This document shows, piece after piece, positions 1 through 62,834 of a DNA stretch of 64,000 bases. A model generated the notes under the pieces. The model searched no databases. It was not told where the DNA came from and worked only from the letters and a program-made list of their open reading frames with translations. This DNA comes from Candidatus Gastranaerophilales bacterium (lineage in GTDB: Bacteria > Cyanobacteriota > Vampirovibrionia > Gastranaerophilales > Gastranaerophilaceae). The DNA is taken from positions 1-64,000 of the forward strand of contig CALUWH010000005.1 of assembly GCA_944324435.1 (NCBI GenBank), written 5' to 3'. Made by a program: the position numbers and the translations under genes. The stretch's first letter is position 1; the number at the start of each line of letters is the position of its first letter.

Positions 1-204
1 AGTTTAACGTCCTTCGGGGGTAAATGGACTTGGTCGGTTGGTAGAACTACAAGTTTAACGTCCTTCGGGGGTAAATGGACTTGGTCGGTTGGTAGAACTA
101 CAAGTTTAACGTCCTTCGGGGGTAAATGGACTTGGTCGGTTGGTAGAACTACAAGTTTAACGTCCTTCGGGGGTAAATGAACTTGGCTGGTTGGCAAAAC
201 TACA
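1..204. repeat. 51-bp tandem repeat, four copies
   Basis: Four head-to-tail units start at 1, 52, 103 and 154. The first three are identical over 51 bp and the fourth differs at several positions. Each unit carries the core GGGGGTAAATGGACTTGG followed by GGTAGAACTACAAGTTT, which contains a small palindrome GTAG-AA-CTAC. There are no unique spacers, so this is not a CRISPR array. The array touches the window edge, so its true copy number is unknown. Relatives in the opposite orientation lie near 13.86-14.1 kb, on the other side of the phage island. Confidence 0.93.
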
Positions 205-285
205 AGTTCAGCATATATAAAACCTTTTAACACAATTAATTATAACTACTCTCTTATATTATCTTACATCTTAATTACAAGTTTC

Positions 286-6295: not shown

Positions 6296-6368
6296 AAAAA
6301 TTTCCTTTCGTTTTAAATAACTACTTTAGCCTATAGACAATAGGCTAATTCTTTGATAATATAGATTT

Positions 6369-6845
6369 GTGATTAGAAAATGTATTAAAAAATTAGATGG
6401 TATAATCCAGTGGAGTAAAAGATTTTACTTCGCTCATTTCTTCGTTTGGCTTACCTGGTTTGCTAATATTCTGTATGTTACAGTCATTACGCTTTTCTAC
6501 ATTGAAGAAGTGATAAAATATTATCCGACTACTCATGCTATTATTTTAGGCTTAACCAGTTCCGACTTTGAAGGATTCTTAGCCTTATATTTACTCTATT
6601 TCCCTTTCTTTTGCGGAGTAATTTTATATGCTATTATCCCTGCCACATTCTTGATAATGCTGATTAAATTTGCTTTTTCTAGAAAATTCACAGTTACAAG
6701 CAAATATTTACTGGATAATAAGAAGTACAACATTTTTTATACTATAGGGTTTATTTATGCTGTCATAATTTGGTTTCTATTATTAATTACAGGTATCGGT
6801 ATTCTAATGTTAAGTTATACAATAACTATTTTTCCAAGATATTAA
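6369..6845 (+). CDS. multi-pass membrane protein, family B copy 1 (immunity-like)
   Basis: A 158-residue protein with four predicted membrane helices (about 25-50, 70-100, 88-108 and 125-150) and a basic cytosolic loop SRKFTVTSKYLLDNKKYN before the last helix. It begins at a GTG codon. It lies opposite to and inside the phage head operon, between scaffold and portal. It is the first of three tandem paralogues, about 70-80 percent identical to copy 3 and less to copy 2. Function is unknown; it is interpreted with the other clusters as an immunity or superinfection-exclusion type protein. Confidence 0.72.
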   Translation: MIRKCIKKLDGIIQWSKRFYFAHFFVWLTWFANILYVTVITLFYIEEVIKYYPTTHAIILGLTSSDFEGFLALYLLYFPFFCGVILYAIIPATFLIMLIKFAFSRKFTVTSKYLLDNKKYNIFYTIGFIYAVIIWFLLLITGIGILMLSYTITIFPRY

Positions 6846-6878
6846 AACACTTTTTTCTTTATTTGATATGGTCAGTTT

Positions 6879-7343
6879 ATGCAAAAAAAATGTATCCAAA
6901 AATTAAATATTATAATCCAGTGGAGTAAAAAATTTTACTTCGTCCATTTCTTTGTTTGGCTTATGTGGTTTGAGAATATTTTATTTTTTGGCACATTTTT
7001 ATTTTGTATGTGTGGAGACGCAATACACAATATTACCTCTCCTAACCCTGTAGAATACAGCATAAATAGTTCTAATTGGACAGATTTAATCGGGTTCTAC
7101 TTTTTGTTTATACCTGCTATATCAGGATTTGCTCTATTATACGCGCTCATCCCCTTTACCCTGATAGTAATGCTGATGAAATACCTTCTTAAAAGAAAAT
7201 TCACCGTTACTGGAAAATTTCTTTTAGAGAATGCAAAATATAACAGATTTTATAAAATAGGCTTCATATATACCGTACTGATGTGGTTGTTTGAACTAGT
7301 TTCAGGTATCGGAATATTAATGCTAAGCCTTGCTTTTATATAA
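6879..7343 (+). CDS. multi-pass membrane protein, family B copy 2 (immunity-like)
   Basis: A 154-residue paralogue with the same four-helix layout. The N-terminus (IIQWSKKFYFVHFFVWL) and the loop before the last helix (LKRKFTVTGKFLLENAKYN) are conserved, while the segment between helices 1 and 2 (residues about 40-75) is entirely different from copies 1 and 3. Variation in that one segment suggests that specificity lies in the external loop. It is spaced 33 bp after copy 1. Confidence 0.72.
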   Translation: MQKKCIQKLNIIIQWSKKFYFVHFFVWLMWFENILFFGTFLFCMCGDAIHNITSPNPVEYSINSSNWTDLIGFYFLFIPAISGFALLYALIPFTLIVMLMKYLLKRKFTVTGKFLLENAKYNRFYKIGFIYTVLMWLFELVSGIGILMLSLAFI

Positions 7344-7364
7344 AATTTTTGATAACGTCAGTTT

Positions 7365-7826
7365 ATGCTAAAAAAATGTATCCAAAAATTAAATAGTATA
7401 ATCCATTGGAGTAAAAGATTTTACTTCGCTCATTTCTTCGTTTGGCTTACTTGGTTTGCAAATATTCTGTACGTAACAGTCATTACGATTTTCTACATTG
7501 AAGAAGTGATAAAGTATTATCCGACTACTCATGCTATTATTTTAGGCTTAACTAGTTCTGACTTAGAAGGATTCTTAGTATTGTATTTACTTTATTTTCC
7601 TTTCTTCAGCGGCTACGTGTTATTAGTGATTATTCCTGCCACGTTCTTGATAATGCTGATTAAGTTTGCTCTTTCCAGAAAATTTACAGTTACTAGCAAA
7701 TATCTACTGGATAATAAGAAGTACAACATTTTTTATATTATAGGACTTATTTATTCGATAGTTATTTGGATTTTTTTGCTCGCAACACAAGTCGGGATTT
7801 ATATGCTAAGCCTGATCCTTATTTAA
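7365..7826 (+). CDS. multi-pass membrane protein, family B copy 3 (immunity-like)
   Basis: A 153-residue protein nearly identical to copy 1 through residue 80 (same YYPTTHAIILGLTSSD loop), diverging in the last helix. It begins 21 bp after copy 2. It ends tail to tail with a short minus-strand C-terminal fragment (7828-7885) and the portal gene. The three copies show ongoing tandem amplification inside a phage morphogenesis operon. Confidence 0.72.
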   Translation: MLKKCIQKLNSIIHWSKRFYFAHFFVWLTWFANILYVTVITIFYIEEVIKYYPTTHAIILGLTSSDLEGFLVLYLLYFPFFSGYVLLVIIPATFLIMLIKFALSRKFTVTSKYLLDNKKYNIFYIIGLIYSIVIWIFLLATQVGIYMLSLILI

Positions 7827-7827
7827 A

Positions 7828-7885
7828 CTACCTGTAATATTTCCTTAAAATATCCTCCAATTCCTCTTTACTGTACCATATTGGG
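7828..7885 (-). pseudogene. C-terminal remnant of an effector-like gene beside portal
   Basis: In a frame different from the portal gene, this stretch reads SPIWYSKEELEDILRKYYR followed by a stop. It aligns with the end of the 86-residue protein at 12911-13171 (IPIKFTKQELEEVLYSKWNQ). It overlaps the last codons of the portal gene and abuts the stop of membrane gene copy 3, the same tail-to-tail arrangement as the remnants at 11240, 11795 and 12347. The match is short, so chance similarity is not excluded. Confidence 0.45.
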
Positions 7886-9826
7886 CTTTTTAGCAGCAGT
7901 CTCACCCTCCGCCTGACGAATAATTTCCTGCAAAGCCTGCTCTATCTCTGCAGGGTTAATTTCCTGCTCAGTTTGAGGATTTGAAACGTCTGCATTCAGC
8001 TGTGAGACAAGATTCTGAAGACCGGCTCCAGCTCCGCCCTGAGCCAAAGCATTAGTATTTACACCCTGATTTGCCCCAAGATTTACCCCTGGATTTACCC
8101 CCTGGTCTATCCCTAAGAATCTTTCAGGGTTATCGACACCTTTTTGCTCAAAGTACCAGACAAAAATCTCCTGTAAGTTCAGAGGAATCAGAGATGCAAA
8201 CCGCTCTACAGATTGAACAACCAAATCAGCCTGCTCCGACTTTTGCGCAGTCACGGAAGAATCAGAATACGTATATTTATAATCACCCTGACGAACAAAA
8301 TCATCAACTTCAATCAACTCTTGATTGTTCTCATGGTTTACAAAAATCGTCTCCACTCCGGATTTAAAATCAGCACAAAGTTTTGCGACCTTTTCCACAT
8401 TCGGGATAATCAAATCCTGATTAATTGTATCCACAATCATAGAAAGTCTTGTCATTTGTCCCTGTGTTTTTGTATTAATCTCAGTTGCGGTTTTTGAAGC
8501 AGACGACTCTACCGCGCCAATCATATTCGGGAATATACCCGAAACCTCTGCCATCAAATCATTCAGGAAGTTTATATCCTCCAAAAATACAGTCGGGTTA
8601 AACGAAAGCTGCTGGAATGCAGCAGCCGGAGAAAGATTATCACCATATTCAATAATTTTTCCCGGATACAACTCAATCTCATCTTCATCAAAAAATCCCT
8701 CCGGAGCAAGAAGCGGCGGATTCTCGTTAAGCGCCTGCAGGTCACAAGTCTTGTTCATCAAATCTTCCTGTAAATGTGCAAGCGAAAGCACTGAATACAG
8801 AGGGCTTATGCCTCGCTTTGTATCAGGGTCGGTAACAAAAGCGCCATAAGAAAATGGGTTTACAATCCTTTCGTTTTTGCCGAAGGCTACCAGATACTTA
8901 CGCGCTACAATAACCGCATGCCAGTTCTTCAAAAGTGTTCCGTCCGGCAGCTTCAAATCCCCCCAGTGTTCTAAAACCTCTACAGTGGAACCCTTTGTTA
9001 CATCCTCTGAAAAAGGAGAAGAAGAAAGTATTTTGTTGTTATTTTCACTATTGCATAATGAATTAATCTCTTCTGCCTGTTCTTTCGTTATTGAATACAA
9101 TTTATTTGAGATAATTTCAGCAGGAGTTTTGTAGGTTCTATAAATTTTCGGACAAGAATCCCAATTGTCTTTCTGCAAAGGATCAAAAACCAAATCAGCC
9201 GGATTCACCGGATAAATATAGGGATTATCGTAAATTTTCTTTGTATCAACCCAGTAGTTTTTACCTTTAGAAATAGCATCCAGTATAAGCGGAAGCTTAG
9301 TTACATCTTGTGAAAACAGGTTTTTAAAAAACTCAATCGGACGTCTGTATTCCTCATAATTCTTTTTCCACGCAGTAAAAGAGATTAATTCTCCGTATAA
9401 AAGTGCATTATCTATAATCTGATCGCAGGTTTTTTGGAACCCCATTTTTTCAAGAATATCAACCAGCATCGCTTTTTGCTTGTTGGAAGCATTGTTGGAA
9501 TCGTGATTCTCTCCTGAAACATCAAACATTGAGTTTACATTTGCGTAGGTATTTCTCCAGATAAAAGCCTTTAGGGTCTGATAAAACATAAAAGTTTTGC
9601 ACATCTTAATCTTAGACTTCCACTTTTTAGTCTTGTCGGAAATTGATTTAAAATCGTTCTTGAAAAATATTTCATTTGCGAGATTAGAAGCCATTTCCAA
9701 ATTGGAAGAACGTTCAGAATTAAGCTCGACAAATTTTGACGCAATTTTCTTCACAAGACGCTCTGACATTTCATCACTAAGTTTTTTTTGAGAATTATCT
9801 TTTTCAATAATGTATTCAAAAGACAT
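7868..9826 (-). CDS. phage portal protein (T7-like head-tail connector)
   Basis: A 652-residue protein, longer than T7 gp8 (536). The N-terminal third has the wing/clip region (KTFMFYQTLKAFIWRNTYANV), the middle has PVNPADLVFDPL and NEPP-type NENPPLLAPEG, and then KTATEINTKTQGQMTRLS, the conserved helix before the tunnel region. The C-terminal about 90 residues are Gly/Asn/Gln-rich (GVNPGVNLGANQGVN) and probably disordered. It forms the dodecameric vertex for DNA packaging. Ribosome binding site GGAAAGGAAATTTT. The gene is intact, but no terminase gene precedes it. Confidence 0.85.
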   Translation of the reverse strand: MSFEYIIEKDNSQKKLSDEMSERLVKKIASKFVELNSERSSNLEMASNLANEIFFKNDFKSISDKTKKWKSKIKMCKTFMFYQTLKAFIWRNTYANVNSMFDVSGENHDSNNASNKQKAMLVDILEKMGFQKTCDQIIDNALLYGELISFTAWKKNYEEYRRPIEFFKNLFSQDVTKLPLILDAISKGKNYWVDTKKIYDNPYIYPVNPADLVFDPLQKDNWDSCPKIYRTYKTPAEIISNKLYSITKEQAEEINSLCNSENNNKILSSSPFSEDVTKGSTVEVLEHWGDLKLPDGTLLKNWHAVIVARKYLVAFGKNERIVNPFSYGAFVTDPDTKRGISPLYSVLSLAHLQEDLMNKTCDLQALNENPPLLAPEGFFDEDEIELYPGKIIEYGDNLSPAAAFQQLSFNPTVFLEDINFLNDLMAEVSGIFPNMIGAVESSASKTATEINTKTQGQMTRLSMIVDTINQDLIIPNVEKVAKLCADFKSGVETIFVNHENNQELIEVDDFVRQGDYKYTYSDSSVTAQKSEQADLVVQSVERFASLIPLNLQEIFVWYFEQKGVDNPERFLGIDQGVNPGVNLGANQGVNTNALAQGGAGAGLQNLVSQLNADVSNPQTEQEINPAEIEQALQEIIRQAEGETAAKKPNMVQ

Positions 9827-10709: not shown

Positions 10710-10782
10710 ACACCCCTTTCTTCTGTGCAAATCAACAAATTTTCCTGTTGCAATATAAGAAAATATATTATAAAATATATAC

Positions 10783-11238
10783 ATGCTTAAATATTTAAAA
10801 ATATTCTACGACTTCCTGATGAAACTAAAGCAGTACCACGCGGTGCATGTTATTGTAATACCACAAATTTTAACACTACCTATTTGTTATTGTTATACAT
10901 TCTATATTGCTATATGTGGATTCAAACCGGAAGATGATATCTATGGTTTTACTATAATTTCAGCACTAGGATTGTGTTTATTTTACATATATATTCTTCC
11001 TATTTTATCACTTTTTACAGCTACTATAATATTTGTAATTCAGAAACTAACAACTACAAAGCTCAAAATTACCTCGCCTTTTTTATTATATAATAGCTTC
11101 TTTAATGTTATATATTTATTAACGTTAATTAATTATATAATAACGGTATTAGTCTTTATTGTTGGAGATTTAGGGAAATACCTCTGCTTCATATACACAA
11201 TACCATATAAATTTGTATCACTACTTAATAATTTCTGA
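10783..11238 (+). CDS. multi-pass membrane protein, family D copy 1 (immunity-like)
   Basis: A 151-residue protein sharing MLKYLKIFYDFLMKLKQYH and then AVHV with the next three genes but with an unrelated membrane region after residue 25. It has four predicted helices, with KLTTTKLKITSPFLLYNSFFN as basic loop before the last two. A conserved N-terminus joined to a different body suggests recombination at the N-terminal segment. Two bp downstream begins a broken minus-strand fragment. Confidence 0.72.
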   Translation: MLKYLKIFYDFLMKLKQYHAVHVIVIPQILTLPICYCYTFYIAICGFKPEDDIYGFTIISALGLCLFYIYILPILSLFTATIIFVIQKLTTTKLKITSPFLLYNSFFNVIYLLTLINYIITVLVFIVGDLGKYLCFIYTIPYKFVSLLNNF

Positions 11239-11239
11239 T

Positions 11240-11339
11240 TCAGTTTTGTAAAATTGTTTCCAACTCCTTTTGGGTAAATTTCACCGGAACATAAAGTATA
11301 TATGGCTCTAATTTACTCGCCTTTTACAGTCCCTACGCA
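11240..11339 (-). pseudogene. broken C-terminal fragment of the 86-residue family, remnant 1
   Basis: The minus-strand frame reads KASKLEPYILYVPVKFTQKE, then LETILQN and a stop, aligned with the C-terminus of the protein at 12911-13171. Two in-frame stops (TAG, TAA) occur just upstream, so this is a dead fragment. It abuts membrane gene copy 1 tail to tail. Confidence 0.8.
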
Positions 11340-11396
11340 TTTAAAAAGTAATGAAACCAACTTGTAAAACAAGAAAATATATTATAAAATACATAT

Positions 11397-11798
11397 ATGC
11401 TTAAATATTTAAAAACATTCTACGACTTCCTGATGAAACTAAAGCAGTACCACGCGGTGCATGTTATGATACTGCCTCCTTTTATTTATTTTATATTATT
11501 AGCTTGGCTATTATATAGTAGCCGGAATCAAGACTATTCACAGACAGAGACCGGCACCTTTATATTTGCACTTTTAATTTTGTTATTACTTGGAATCGCA
11601 GAAATTTCATTTTTTATAGCATTATTTGTAGAAATTATAATATTAATTAGACAACACTTCACACGAAAAAAAATCATAATTAAATGGAAATTTATATTAA
11701 ATAACCGAATATACAATATCATCTTTTTATTGAGTTTAGCAGTATATTTTACTATATCTTTTATAATTTTTATGGACATATTATTTAGTAGCTTTTAG
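11397..11798 (+). CDS. multi-pass membrane protein, family D copy 2 (immunity-like)
   Basis: A 133-residue protein with three or four membrane helices: about 24-43, 54-85 (long or split) and 105-130. The first loop is polar (SSRNQDYSQTETG), and a basic cytosolic loop RQHFTRKKIIIKWKFILNN precedes the last helix. It differs from copy 3 at a single residue (T7 against I7). Its stop overlaps the end of remnant 2. No homologue was recognised. Confidence 0.72.
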   Translation: MLKYLKTFYDFLMKLKQYHAVHVMILPPFIYFILLAWLLYSSRNQDYSQTETGTFIFALLILLLLGIAEISFFIALFVEIIILIRQHFTRKKIIIKWKFILNNRIYNIIFLLSLAVYFTISFIIFMDILFSSF

Positions 11799-11890
11799 TC
11801 TAAAATTTTTTCTAGTTCTTTTGTTGTAAACTTTATCGGGATATAAAGAATATAAGGCTCTAACTTACTCGCCTTTTACAGTTCATACGC
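11795..11890 (-). pseudogene. broken C-terminal fragment of the 86-residue family, remnant 2
   Basis: It reads KASKLEPYILYIPIKFTTKE, then LEKILD and a stop on the minus strand, preceded by an in-frame TAA. It is homologous to the C-terminus of the 12911-13171 protein and overlaps the stop codon of membrane gene copy 2. Confidence 0.8.
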
Positions 11891-11948
11891 ATTTAAAAAG
11901 TAATGAAACCAACTTGCAAAACAAGAAAATATATTATAAAATACATAC

Positions 11949-12350
11949 ATGCTTAAATATTTAAAAATATTCTACGACTTCCTAATGAAACTAAAGCAGT
12001 ACCACGCGGTGCATGTTATGATACTGCCTCCTTTTATTTATTTTATATTATTAGCTTGGCTATTATATAGTAGCCGGAATCAAGACTATTCACAGACAGA
12101 GACCGGCACCTTTATATTTGCACTTTTAATTTTGTTATTACTTGGAATCGCAGAAATTTCATTTTTTATAGCATTATTTGTAGAAATTATAATATTAATT
12201 AGACAACACTTCACACGAAAAAAAATCATAATTAAATGGAAATTTATATTAAATAACCGAATATACAATATCATCTTTTTATTGAGTTTAGCAGTATATT
12301 TTACTATATCTTTTATAATTTTTATGGACATATTATTTAGTAGCTTTTAG
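11949..12350 (+). CDS. multi-pass membrane protein, family D copy 3 (immunity-like)
   Basis: A 133-residue protein identical to copy 2 except residue 7. It lies in the second 552-bp unit. Retention of two identical reading frames without any stop or frameshift suggests either dosage selection or a duplication too recent to decay. It has the same topology as copy 2. Confidence 0.72.
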   Translation: MLKYLKIFYDFLMKLKQYHAVHVMILPPFIYFILLAWLLYSSRNQDYSQTETGTFIFALLILLLLGIAEISFFIALFVEIIILIRQHFTRKKIIIKWKFILNNRIYNIIFLLSLAVYFTISFIIFMDILFSSF

Positions 12351-12442
12351 TCTAAAATTTTTTCTAGTTCTTTTGTTGTAAACTTTATCGGGATATAAAG
12401 AATATAAGGCTCTAACTTACTCGCCTTTTACAGTTCATACGC
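12347..12442 (-). pseudogene. broken C-terminal fragment of the 86-residue family, remnant 3
   Basis: An exact repeat of remnant 2, 552 bp downstream, with the same in-frame stop. It overlaps the stop codon of membrane gene copy 3. Confidence 0.8.
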
Positions 12443-12500
12443 ATTTAAAAAGTAATGAAACCAACTTGCAAAACAAGAAAATATATTATAAAATACATAC

Positions 12501-12890
12501 ATGCTTAAATATTTAAAAATATTCTACGACTTCCTAATGAAACTAAAGCAGTACCACGCGGTGCATGTTATGATACTGCCTCCTTTTATTTATTTTATAT
12601 TATTAGCTTGGCTATTATATAGTAGCCGGAATCAAGACTATTCACAGACAGAGACCGGCACCTTTATATTTGCACTTTTAATTTTGTTATTACTTGGAAT
12701 CGCAGAAATTTCATTTTTTATAGCATTATTTGTAGAAATTATAATATTAATTAGACAACACTTCACACGAAAAAAAATCATAATTAAATGGAAATTTATA
12801 TTAAATAACCGAGTATACAATATCATCTTTTTGTTAAGCCTAACTCTTTATCTAATTTTAACTATTGTTTATTTATATAACTTTGTTTAA
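12501..12890 (+). CDS. multi-pass membrane protein, family D copy 4 (immunity-like)
   Basis: A 129-residue protein, identical to copy 3 for about 110 residues, then a different last helix (LSLTLYLILTIVYLYNFV). It is the copy facing, tail to tail with a 20-bp gap, the most complete member of the minus-strand family (12911-13171). If this is an effector/immunity module, this is the presently cognate pair and copies 2 and 3 are spare duplicates. Confidence 0.72.
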   Translation: MLKYLKIFYDFLMKLKQYHAVHVMILPPFIYFILLAWLLYSSRNQDYSQTETGTFIFALLILLLLGIAEISFFIALFVEIIILIRQHFTRKKIIIKWKFILNNRVYNIIFLLSLTLYLILTIVYLYNFV

Positions 12891-12910
12891 ATTATATCAC
12901 TATTTGACAA

Positions 12911-13171
12911 TTATTGATTCCATTTACTATACAAAACTTCTTCAAGCTCTTGTTTAGTAAACTTTATCGGAATATAAAGAATATAAGGCTCTAGCTTATT
13001 AGCCTTCTGTTGTCTATACGCATTGTTATTGATGTATTTTATTCCCTTTTCTTTCCAATCATCATTTTCATTTTCATACAAATAATCAAAATCAAAAAGA
13101 TCACTAATTACAAAAGAAATTGAACCGTCATCTTCTTTTTTCATATCATAGATATCCGCTCTATGAAGCAC
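12911..13171 (-). CDS. 86-residue protein, probably the C-terminal domain of an effector-like gene
   Basis: The protein reads ADIYDMKKEDDGSISFVISD, then LFDFDY, then AYRQQKANKLEPYILYIPIK and ends KFTKQELEEVLYSKWNQ. The frame opens with a GTG at 13171 and lacks a convincing ribosome binding site. The ordered strands at the very start suggest that the N-terminus of a longer protein has been lost. C-terminal fragments of the same family occur at 7828, 11240, 11795 and 12347. The overall pattern (a DxFDFD strand, then a QQxxxLxPYxxxIPI strand) recalls C-terminal domains of phage or polymorphic-toxin proteins, but no family is assigned. Confidence 0.6.
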   Translation of the reverse strand: MLHRADIYDMKKEDDGSISFVISDLFDFDYLYENENDDWKEKGIKYINNNAYRQQKANKLEPYILYIPIKFTKQELEEVLYSKWNQ

Positions 13172-13839: not shown

Positions 13840-14096
13840 ATTTTAAATCCACACCCCCATCAGCGGCCGACAAACTTGTAGTTTCTACTAACCCAATCTA
13901 TTAACCCCTCCCCGAAATCAAAGATTTCGACCCTCCCACAAGGGGAGGGTTAAGTTGACCACATATAGCAGGGCTTTTTCCTTTCCCTAGGACACCAAAC
14001 TTGTAGTCTCCACTAACCCAGCCAAATCTATTTCCCCCCCCCTAGGCTGCCAAACTTGTAGTCTCTACCAACCAGCCAAATCTATTTACCCCCCCC
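13840..14096. repeat. inverted relatives of the 51-bp repeat plus a palindromic element
   Basis: Read on the minus strand, two units contain GGGGTAAATAGATTTGGC (or GGGGAAATAGATTTGGC) followed by TGGTAGAGACTACAAGTTTGG, matching the array at 1-204; a third partial unit lies near 13868-13900. The orientation is opposite to the left array. Between them, 13905-13950 forms a hairpin with TTAACCC(C)TCCCC and GGGGAGGGTTAA arms and an inner GAAATC-AAA-GATTTC stem. No gene is present. Confidence 0.8.
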
Positions 14097-14402
14097 CTAG
14101 ATTTTGTCTTGATTAACCCCTTCAATAATATTAATCTCGGGTTCCATGTTTTCTACGAGTTCATTATCAAGTCCGAGCGCAAGCCTGTGTCCTTTTTGGA
14201 TTTTGCCGACGGCAGAGATTAGAAAATCCAGAGTTGAGACAGAGTTTTTCGGCATATCTAAAAAATCAAACTCTGCAGACTTTAGTTCCTGCTCATAATT
14301 CTTTATAAGAAATTCGACAATTCCTAACGTTTTATCATAAAGAGCTATATGTTTTTCATTAACCTTTTTTTGCAAAGCTCTTGTTTTCTTGATATCTGAC
14401 AT
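14097..14402 (-). CDS. phage-like small protein, possibly terminase-small-subunit related
   Basis: A 101-residue helical protein (MSDIKKTRALQKKVNEKHIA...). The C-terminal part has IQKGHRLALGLDNELVEN followed by INIIEGVNQDKI, a layout I associate with small proteins encoded just before phage terminase large subunits. The start at 14402 has AGGA 8 bp upstream; the frame is open to 14483. No large terminase follows within the island; instead the inverted repeats begin at its stop codon. Assignment is tentative. Confidence 0.45.
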   Translation of the reverse strand: MSDIKKTRALQKKVNEKHIALYDKTLGIVEFLIKNYEQELKSAEFDFLDMPKNSVSTLDFLISAVGKIQKGHRLALGLDNELVENMEPEINIIEGVNQDKI

Positions 14403-42027: not shown

Positions 42028-42066
42028 AGGTGTCAAGGTTTCTTCATACTTGCCACCTTTTTTTTG
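42028..42066 (+). terminator. Rho-independent terminator after emrA
   Basis: AGGTGTCAAG pairs with CTTGCCACCT (one mismatch) around an 11-nt loop and is followed by about nine T residues. It ends the marR-emrA transcript. Confidence 0.85.
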
Positions 42067-42079
42067 TGCTACGCACGTA

Positions 42080-42443
42080 GGGGTAAATATACTTGGTCGG
42101 CAGGTATTGGTAAACATTTAACGTTTATAATACTCCTACTTACCTGCCTCGAATTACCTCTACCAGCCGGGGTAAATATATATCGTCGGCAGGTAATGGT
42201 AAACATTCAACGTTTGTAATACTCCTACTTACCTGCCTCGAATTAACCCTACCAGCCGGGGTAAATATATATCGTCGGCAGGTAATGGTAAACATTCAAC
42301 GTTTGTAATACTCCTACTTACCTGCCTCAAATTGTCTCTACCAGCCTGCACGTAGGGGGGGGTAAATGTATTTGGTCGGCAGGTATTGATAAAACATTCA
42401 ACGTTTGTAATACTCCTACCTGCCTCTAATTGCCTCTACCAGG
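42080..42443. repeat. 89-bp structured tandem repeat, four units
   Basis: Units start with GGGGTAAAT at 42080, 42169, 42258 and 42359 (spacings 89, 89 and 101 bp). Each can fold: GGCAGGTAA pairs with TTACCTGCC and, inside, AAAC with GTTT. The last unit has an extra 12 bp. The first 27 bp (GGGGTAAATATACTTGGTCGG...) match the 51-bp repeat at 1-204 at 23 positions, so both belong to one family. No coding frame runs through it. The flanks up to 42600 hold nothing else recognised. Confidence 0.85.
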
Positions 42444-42600: not shown

Positions 42601-42756
42601 ATGATTACTAAAAAACTACGCAGTATCGGAGGAAGTTGGGGTGTTATAATCCCTAAGGCAATACTGGATGGGCTCGGTATTAATCCGGTACTTGATCAGG
42701 TCGAACTATATCTGGAAGATAACGAAATTAGAATAAGAAAAATTAAAAAGGATTAA
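42601..42756 (+). CDS. AbrB/MazE-like DNA-binding protein
   Basis: A 51-residue swapped-hairpin domain: LRSIGGSWGVIIPKAILDGL and a C-terminal VELYLEDNEIRIRKI. This matches SpoVT-AbrB/MazE antitoxin-type DNA-binding domains. The ATG at 42601 is preferred because GAGGTG precedes it. No toxin gene follows; the next gene, 3 bp away, encodes a flavin reductase-rubredoxin, so it may regulate that gene. Confidence 0.8.
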   Translation: MITKKLRSIGGSWGVIIPKAILDGLGINPVLDQVELYLEDNEIRIRKIKKD

Positions 42757-62158: not shown

Positions 62159-62834
62159 GGGGTAAATGGTTTAGAAGGAAATAAGTTTAGAGGTTGAGAA
62201 GAAGTTATTGACTAAAATGTCATACTGAACTTGTTTCCACAACTGTCCAGGATAATTTTGTATAAAAAACTGAAAAATGAGTAAAAAAATGTCATCCTGA
62301 AAGATTAGAAAAACAAACGAAAGTGTAGTTTTTCAATCTGTTCAGGATCTTACCAAAAACTAAATATAATATCTGGTTTGTAAGATTCTGAACTGTGCGA
62401 AAAATTAACCGTTTTAAATAAATTAATTTTTCAGCACTTTCTCAAATGACAGAATTTTTAAATTTATTCGGGACAGCAGGGGAACTTGTTTCAGCTTCTT
62501 ACCGGACAGCAAATATAACAACACACCGGCGTAAGCCCCCGAAGGGGGAAATAATCCCTATAGGCTTCACGCCAAACTATTCGGATTGATATAAAATTCC
62601 AGATGACGTTTTAATCTATTGTCTATCCACGTTTTTTTTGAGTTCAATACCCGTCGTTACTTTTTCAGATTTTCTCATAAAATTGTCCCGAATACTTGTA
62701 CCACGCAGCAAAACTACAGGATATGCAAATAATCTGTTATAATATTTTTATACAGAACAACAAAAATTGTTTGAATATGAACATTTTTAAATAATTTTCG
62801 TTATAATATTGTAAAGGCAATATAAGGTATAAAA
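62159..62834. other. 676-bp intergenic stretch with repeat fragments, no gene
   Basis: GGGGGTAAATGG (62158-62169) directly after the gyrB stop matches the core of the 51-bp repeat. Further on, GTCATCCTGAAAGATTAGAAA and TTTTTCAATCTGTTCAGGATCT near 62290-62350 form an imperfect inverted pair, typical of dispersed intergenic repeats. Several T-tracts follow gyrB. No frame with a ribosome binding site was found. The last 60 bp hold the promoter and leader of the anti-sigma gene. Confidence 0.6.

Follow-up and report, generated by a model that had tools for sequence, protein, structure and literature searches.

We analyzed a 64,000-nucleotide stretch of a Gastranaerophilales contig (the window), in which a tandem array lies behind the terminator of an HlyD-type efflux gene. 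Tandem Repeats Finder reports a period of 89 bp, 3.0 copies and 93% matches at 42080-42346, and the full array adds to these three units a fourth, diverged one that follows a 12-bp spacer (Table 1). Just 3′ of the array, and 5′ of a flavin reductase gene, is a MazE/AbrB-like reading frame of 51 aa (42601-42756, plus strand). Each unit is a composite of a G-run leader, GGGGTAAATRTAT, and a hairpin module, GTCGGCAG...CTGCCTC. A preliminary description of the array assigned a GGCAGGTAA/TTACCTGCC stem to all four units; we found it perfect over 9 bp in units 2 and 3 and one pair shorter, 8 bp, in the other two. The inner AAAC/GTTT pair proposed with it is present as letters in every unit, but the predicted optimal fold of unit 4 leaves it unused. 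The leading 27 bp, said to agree with a 51-bp repeat elsewhere in the window at 23 positions, do so in units 1 and 4, whereas units 2 and 3 match at 20.

Table 1. Repeat copies and adjoining features in the window.
Feature	Position	Strand	Remarks
51-bp short-form array	1..208	+	Contig starts within the array
Two GGGGTAAAT leader words, 12 bp apart	8081..8101	-	In a 651-aa frame, GVNPGVN; possible leader-only copies
Two short-form units	13995..14100	-	Repeat finder, core match
Terminator-like hairpin and T-run	42029..42065	+	3′ of the HlyD-type efflux gene; the array is inserted at this site
Terminator arms GGTGTCAAG and CTTGCCACC	42029-42037, 42049-42057	+	By sequence
GTGCTACGCACGTA leader, GTGC/GCAC hairpin	42066..42079	+	Same leader 5′ of hairpin modules at other loci
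Unit 1, G-run leader and hairpin module	42080..42168	+	Match to sequence model R1
Unit 2	42169..42257	+	R1 match, repeat finder, fold
Unit 3	42258..42346	+	R1 match, repeat finder, fold
Spacer TGCACGTAGGGG, remnant of GCACGTA leader	42347..42358	+	Sequence
Unit 4, right stem arm 4 bp shorter	42359..42443	+	R1 match, fold
Leader fragment GGGGTAAATGG	62159..62169	+	Directly 3′ of the gyrB stop codon; GGGGTAAAT fragment

Further copies of the family lie elsewhere in the window, where the core GGGGTAAATRNAYTTGGTCGG (up to 3 mismatches) occurs 10 times against 0.01 expected, and the leader word GGGGTAAAT 13 times against 0.60 expected. The core fragment previously described after gyrB is indeed there: the gene, identified by Pfam, ends in CACCTAG and GGGGTAAATGG follows immediately. 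The 651-aa frame (7868-9826, minus strand) has no Pfam match, and its C-terminal GVNPGVNLGANQGVN is encoded by GGGGTAAAT-like 12-bp repeats. Regions 10748-13024 and 6347-7716 contain tandem gene-sized duplications with a period of 552 bp and copies 80-100% alike, and a second duplication set with a spacing of ~500 bp.

The repeat family is modular

Copies of the family begin with a leader, usually a G-run followed by TAAATRTATT, and continue with either a short module or a hairpin module, the latter laid out as GTCGGCAGACA...ACTAC...GTCTGCCTC. Other leaders, among them GTGCTACGCACGTA..., also occur. At one orthologous site, G009 and G013 carry the G-run leader, G033 has TACTACGTGTGTAAATATTGGG before the same body, and G005 is empty; on this comparison, leaders appear to replace one another. 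The short and hairpin forms have in common the leader, the motif TCGG and one GTnnnACTACnAG part, and we infer that the short form is a shortened hairpin form. In genome G033, one copy of the core (locus L080) directly follows a telomere-like GGGGTAA run. The left edge of the repeat is clear and the right edge is undefined; recJ is the one site where G-runs bound the array on both sides. Terminal inverted repeats were not seen, nor was a defined target duplication.

A clear outer stem is found in the hairpin module, whereas most of the genes with in-frame copies (see below) contain the short form. In 45 distinct rows gathered with a sequence-only model, three of the eight outer-stem pairs change on both sides, and such double-sided changes fill 12 cells, whereas shuffles give 1.4 and slid controls 0. 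These cells include related copies, and at least four separate changes can be told apart (the window group, L291, L296 and L314). Pairing cells amount to 88.5%, against 85.0% in shuffles, and the eighth pair forms in 5 of the 41 rows with letters there. Further pair types, one of five covariation measures, show no excess (4 versus 4.1 in shuffles), and RNAalifold on A2 returned three pairs, without support. Together these data are modest evidence that selection probably acts on the outer stem, at the DNA or RNA level.

The family is concentrated in one genus

Among named genomes, the nearest relatives of CoaBC come from metagenome-assembled Candidatus Gastranaerophilales and Candidatus Melainabacteria. 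In the genome that contains the window, the core with at most one mismatch occurs 31 times and its reversed word twice; some of the 31 are coincidences, and by our reading of the sequences true copies would occupy about 16 loci, mostly as tandem units. The exact core was found in 20 of 57 relatives, 19 of the 34 of the genus among them, and the reversed control in none. The single match outside the genus looks like a coincidence, and some of the 19 genus genomes have only one or two matches, several of which are other sequences. In particular, the matches at L063, L068, L077, L081 and L083 belong to another conserved sequence, GGGTAAATGTATTCGGGGTAAGGATACC...GTAACGGATATGGTTTACAA, which follows TTCACAAGGTAGTGAA-like repeats in several species. 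The hairpin module with exact ends occurs in 18 of the 57 relatives (16 of 34 in the genus; reversed control, 0), where the two matches outside the genus lack ACTAC motifs and one in G019 (L298) looks like coding chance.

The leader word GGGGTAAAT is far more abundant, with 17-391 occurrences per genome in 33 genus genomes compared with 5-25 for the reversed word, and is near control level outside the genus (7-31 in 21 genomes, versus 0-24). In 103 related loci (313,702 bases), most of them not selected for repeats and some of them overlapping or containing arrays, it occurs 40 times and the reversed word not once. Searching 146 genomes of the order with the sequence-only hairpin-module model gave matches in 11. 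Seven are genomes of the genus with 2-12 each; the remaining four belong to different genera of the family, and each has a single weak match (E 3e-5 to 9e-4). Genome G020 of the genus has no match, and 115 further matchless genomes are not itemised by genus. A search of viruses with one exact pattern gave 0 matches. The hairpin pattern in one viral contig we attribute to chance, since the contig is GC-rich and model R1 finds nothing there. Comparison of the array with phage and plasmid records yielded no match.

Arrays begin at G-runs, some in sites that are empty in relatives

Arrays begin at a G-run. Of 100 first-unit contexts, 17 lie behind a REP head, and the other 83 carry at most 0.12 bit at positions -20 to -2; the high information in the core results from the search pattern, as in part does that at -1. 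Array starts show an enrichment at stop codons: among 99 intergenic starts, 13 fall between -9 and +6 relative to the end of a stop codon on the same strand, compared with 158 of 6911 random intergenic positions, with some of the 13 being orthologous sites.

At the window site, G027 has the identical terminator with no array following, G011 has a single unit followed by the beginning of another, and G000 has four units, while at a second site (site H) G000, G011 and G027 have 2, 0 and 5 units; all genomes are metagenome assemblies, and unit numbers may be wrong. Several empty sites already possess a G-run or G-rich codons. Site H in G011 reads GGTGGGGTAAATAAG, the empty recJ site in G023 has AAAAGGGGATAAA, and the empty radA sites have three GGN codons in four of five genomes and GGAAGCGGT in the fifth. 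The empty mnmE sites have no G-run.

Conserved enzymes carry in-frame copies

We found the repeat within the reading frames of five genes, in 11 gene-genome cases, always in the sense orientation and in a single, open frame. These are radA (G019, three units; G029, two), mnmE (G019, one unit; G029, three), coaBC and recJ (each in G000, G011 and G027), and a zinc dehydrogenase in G011, the weakest case, for which the sole compared relative is distant. A loose ORF rule had flagged 14 of 97 arrays; we retained the seven in recognised genes and left out seven as short or antisense (L189, L192, L193, L203, L220, L254 and L005). The frame reads GGT AAA TGT or GGG AAA TGT and gives recognisable peptides like GGKCIGLAGETTSL, so that in-gene copies would be translated as an extra protein loop. 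RecJ in G000 (L002) is matched by both Pfam DHH and DHHA1.

Spacings within genes are 54, 54, 54, 54, 57, 54, 57, 57, 57 and 57, all ten of them multiples of 3, though they come from eight arrays, several of which are orthologous. In the comparison class, 27 of 82 units are divisible by 3, a figure raised by a few in-gene units from duplicate loci (L017 is one example); the three 49-bp units at L237 form an intergenic array on the other strand. Translational bypass or RNA-level removal of the in-gene copies is unlikely, because the open frame and the multiples of 3 are maintained. Among the 82 units, 41 are stop-free in the genic frame, 33 and 0 in the other two sense frames, and 26-41 in the antisense frames, so the use of one frame needs more than stop codons as its explanation, and entry at glycine codons would supply it.

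Structure alignments place the RadA insert (residues 85-152) between chain positions 84 and 84 of 5lkm, and the CoaBC insert between 297 and 302 of 6tgv. The MnmE insert falls within query residues 61-140; this stretch also includes a further repeat, and its left piece matches weakly. In the predicted model of CoaBC from G027, pLDDT drops below 50 only at residues 283-361, the insert; this low confidence is partly expected, because 2 of 16 aligned sequences have such an insert. The coaBC position is empty in 11 other relatives (L269-L279), and L268 has at the identical position a different in-frame insert made of short GGGGTAAATGGA-like repeats.

A non-autonomous mini-element as the preferred reading

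We interpret the array as a tandem-amplified copy of a family of non-autonomous selfish mini-elements in one genus of the Gastranaerophilales, gut bacteria with kinship to cyanobacteria, a reading to which we give a probability of roughly 0.6. On our best reading, the family would act like the Rickettsia palindromic elements (RPEs) and yet be a separate family. The preliminary description had suggested one family in two structured forms, possibly a mobile palindromic element, and both suggestions gain support from the dispersed copies, the filled and empty orthologous sites and the compensatory changes, which concern the outer stem of the hairpin module. From these sequence comparisons we infer mobility. 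Units may be copied into existing G-runs, our preferred step, through microhomology there or by a trans-acting enzyme that possibly uses the hairpin; recombination or slippage between the G-runs of adjacent units could then produce tandem growth. Selection would purge harmful insertions, with survivors found behind stop codons or terminators or lengthening a loop in frame, and the array in the window would be a harmless insertion 3′ of the terminator of the efflux operon. A bolder proposal, which we offer tentatively and hold to be rather doubtful, is that GGGGTAAAT signals landing and copying in an undescribed mobile process of this genus, in which short units joined by G-runs are copied into existing G-runs with no need of a Y1 transposase or a reverse transcriptase. 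This process would have seeded a 9-14 bp word by the hundreds, carried the larger hairpin modules, and repeatedly remodelled conserved proteins with in-frame tandem peptides.

The family could instead belong to the REP/BIME elements, intergenic hairpin repeats that a REP-associated tyrosine transposase (RAYT) mobilises in genomes holding Y1 transposases. It too forms hairpins and sits beside REP heads in 17% of array contexts. Of 38 genus genomes, 22 have a Y1_Tnp hit, and these include six of the seven genomes with the most short-form copies (the seven being G000, G011, G014, G019, G027, G029 and G033). Y1_Tnp nonetheless gives no hit at E 1e-5 in the copy-rich G014, G023 (only 83% complete) and G026, and the family core was not found in 20 transposase loci, of 43 hits listed, where we saw only 17-base matches with several substitutions. 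None of these 20 loci shows a RAYT gene flanked by family repeats; the nine whose flanks we read bear other, GTAG-type palindromes, while family copies, unlike REP/BIME elements, also lie within genes. Near transposases the leader word reaches 11 in 81,856 bases, no clear excess over the 10 in 106,072 of loci without an array. The link to a REP-associated transposase raised in the preliminary description thus finds no support in the examined loci, and we consider a RAYT origin unlikely. The RAYT-like genes at L110-L116, L118 and L120 have their own GTAG-type palindromes, which differ from genome to genome. Reverse transcriptase was rejected as the engine because RVT_1, found in seven of 38 genus genomes, is present in just one (G011) of the seven genomes with the most short-form copies. 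Our survey of these two enzyme families, Y1 and reverse transcriptase, turned up neither a responsible enzyme nor a parent transposon.

The repeats could also be ordinary tandem repeats that arise by slippage and are spread only by recombination, with no mobility of their own. Variable G-run length, changing unit number and short tandem forms such as the GGGGTAA repeats at L080 would fit such an origin. It is nevertheless improbable, given that the same leader and modules turn up within one genus at numerous unrelated sites whose left flanks are themselves unrelated, and that copies occupy sites that are empty in relatives.

That the array is a structured RNA or an RNA-level regulator we judge very unlikely. 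The compensatory changes in the outer stem, the position of the array between two genes and RNA-fold z-scores of -2.1, -2.7, -1.2 and -2.6 for units 1-4 agree with this idea; folded as DNA, unit 2 gives z = -3.25. Against it, the folds of L159 and L170 are no better than shuffles, Rfam covariance models have no match in the window at gathering thresholds, copies stand in tandem, in both orientations and within reading frames, the locus corresponding to the window in G027 lacks the module, and conserved pairing amounts to one outer stem, so we see no support for the unrecognised RNA suggested earlier. Assembly artefacts might be suspected in short-read metagenome assemblies, where the window contig starts within an array and contigs end at several related loci, but are scarcely credible as the explanation, since in-gene copies occur at identical places and in open frames in three genomes for coaBC and recJ and in two for radA and mnmE.

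Relation to known coding repeats

RPEs and the coding palindromes of Wolbachia are described as small palindromic repeats, intergenic and in frame within conserved genes, for which no enzyme is known either, and RPEs and other MITEs have been found fused in frame with genes, so that repeats of this kind are already known (PMC2229807, PMC10969869). The family described here similarly has both intergenic copies (99 starts) and in-frame copies (five genes), read in one conserved frame that yields a recognisable peptide. Set beside the RPE descriptions, it would differ in sequence, and it differs in host, in its G-run leader, in tandem amplification that also occurs within genes, and in unit size (49-125 bp, against 105-150 bp for RPEs). 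MITEs such as ERIC and YPAL/RU-2 resemble it in being non-autonomous, dispersed and sometimes fused in frame, and YPAL mobility was also argued from filled and empty sites (PMC2229807, PMC10969869); the family seems to part from them in the terminal inverted repeats, defined target duplication and parent transposon, none of which we found. PARCELs are palindromic DNA repeats translated to tandem peptide repeats, with a 25-residue motif in ORFs without assigned functions, whereas the in-gene copies here lie in conserved enzymes (PMC2996958). Among open-licence papers on repeats of the order and phylum and on coding palindromes, titles and abstracts do not describe the family.

Rickettsia supplies the best-known case of in-frame selfish DNA, whose movement is unexplained, and the present family would be a second system, from a gut lineage not related to Rickettsia. 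Numerous related genomes, sites both filled and empty, and arrays that grow in tandem within genes make movement without a visible enzyme testable, as they do the tolerance or use of added loops by CoaBC, MnmE, RadA and RecJ. For annotators, differences in protein length among these genomes can be repeat-driven. A second in-frame repeat, with peptides like PPPNPLPQGAGE or APSGRGSGRGAE, occurs at L247 and L327 (mnmE), L266 and L268 (coaBC), and L237 and L215 (radA), and derives from palindromes of the CCCTCCC...GGGAGGG type.
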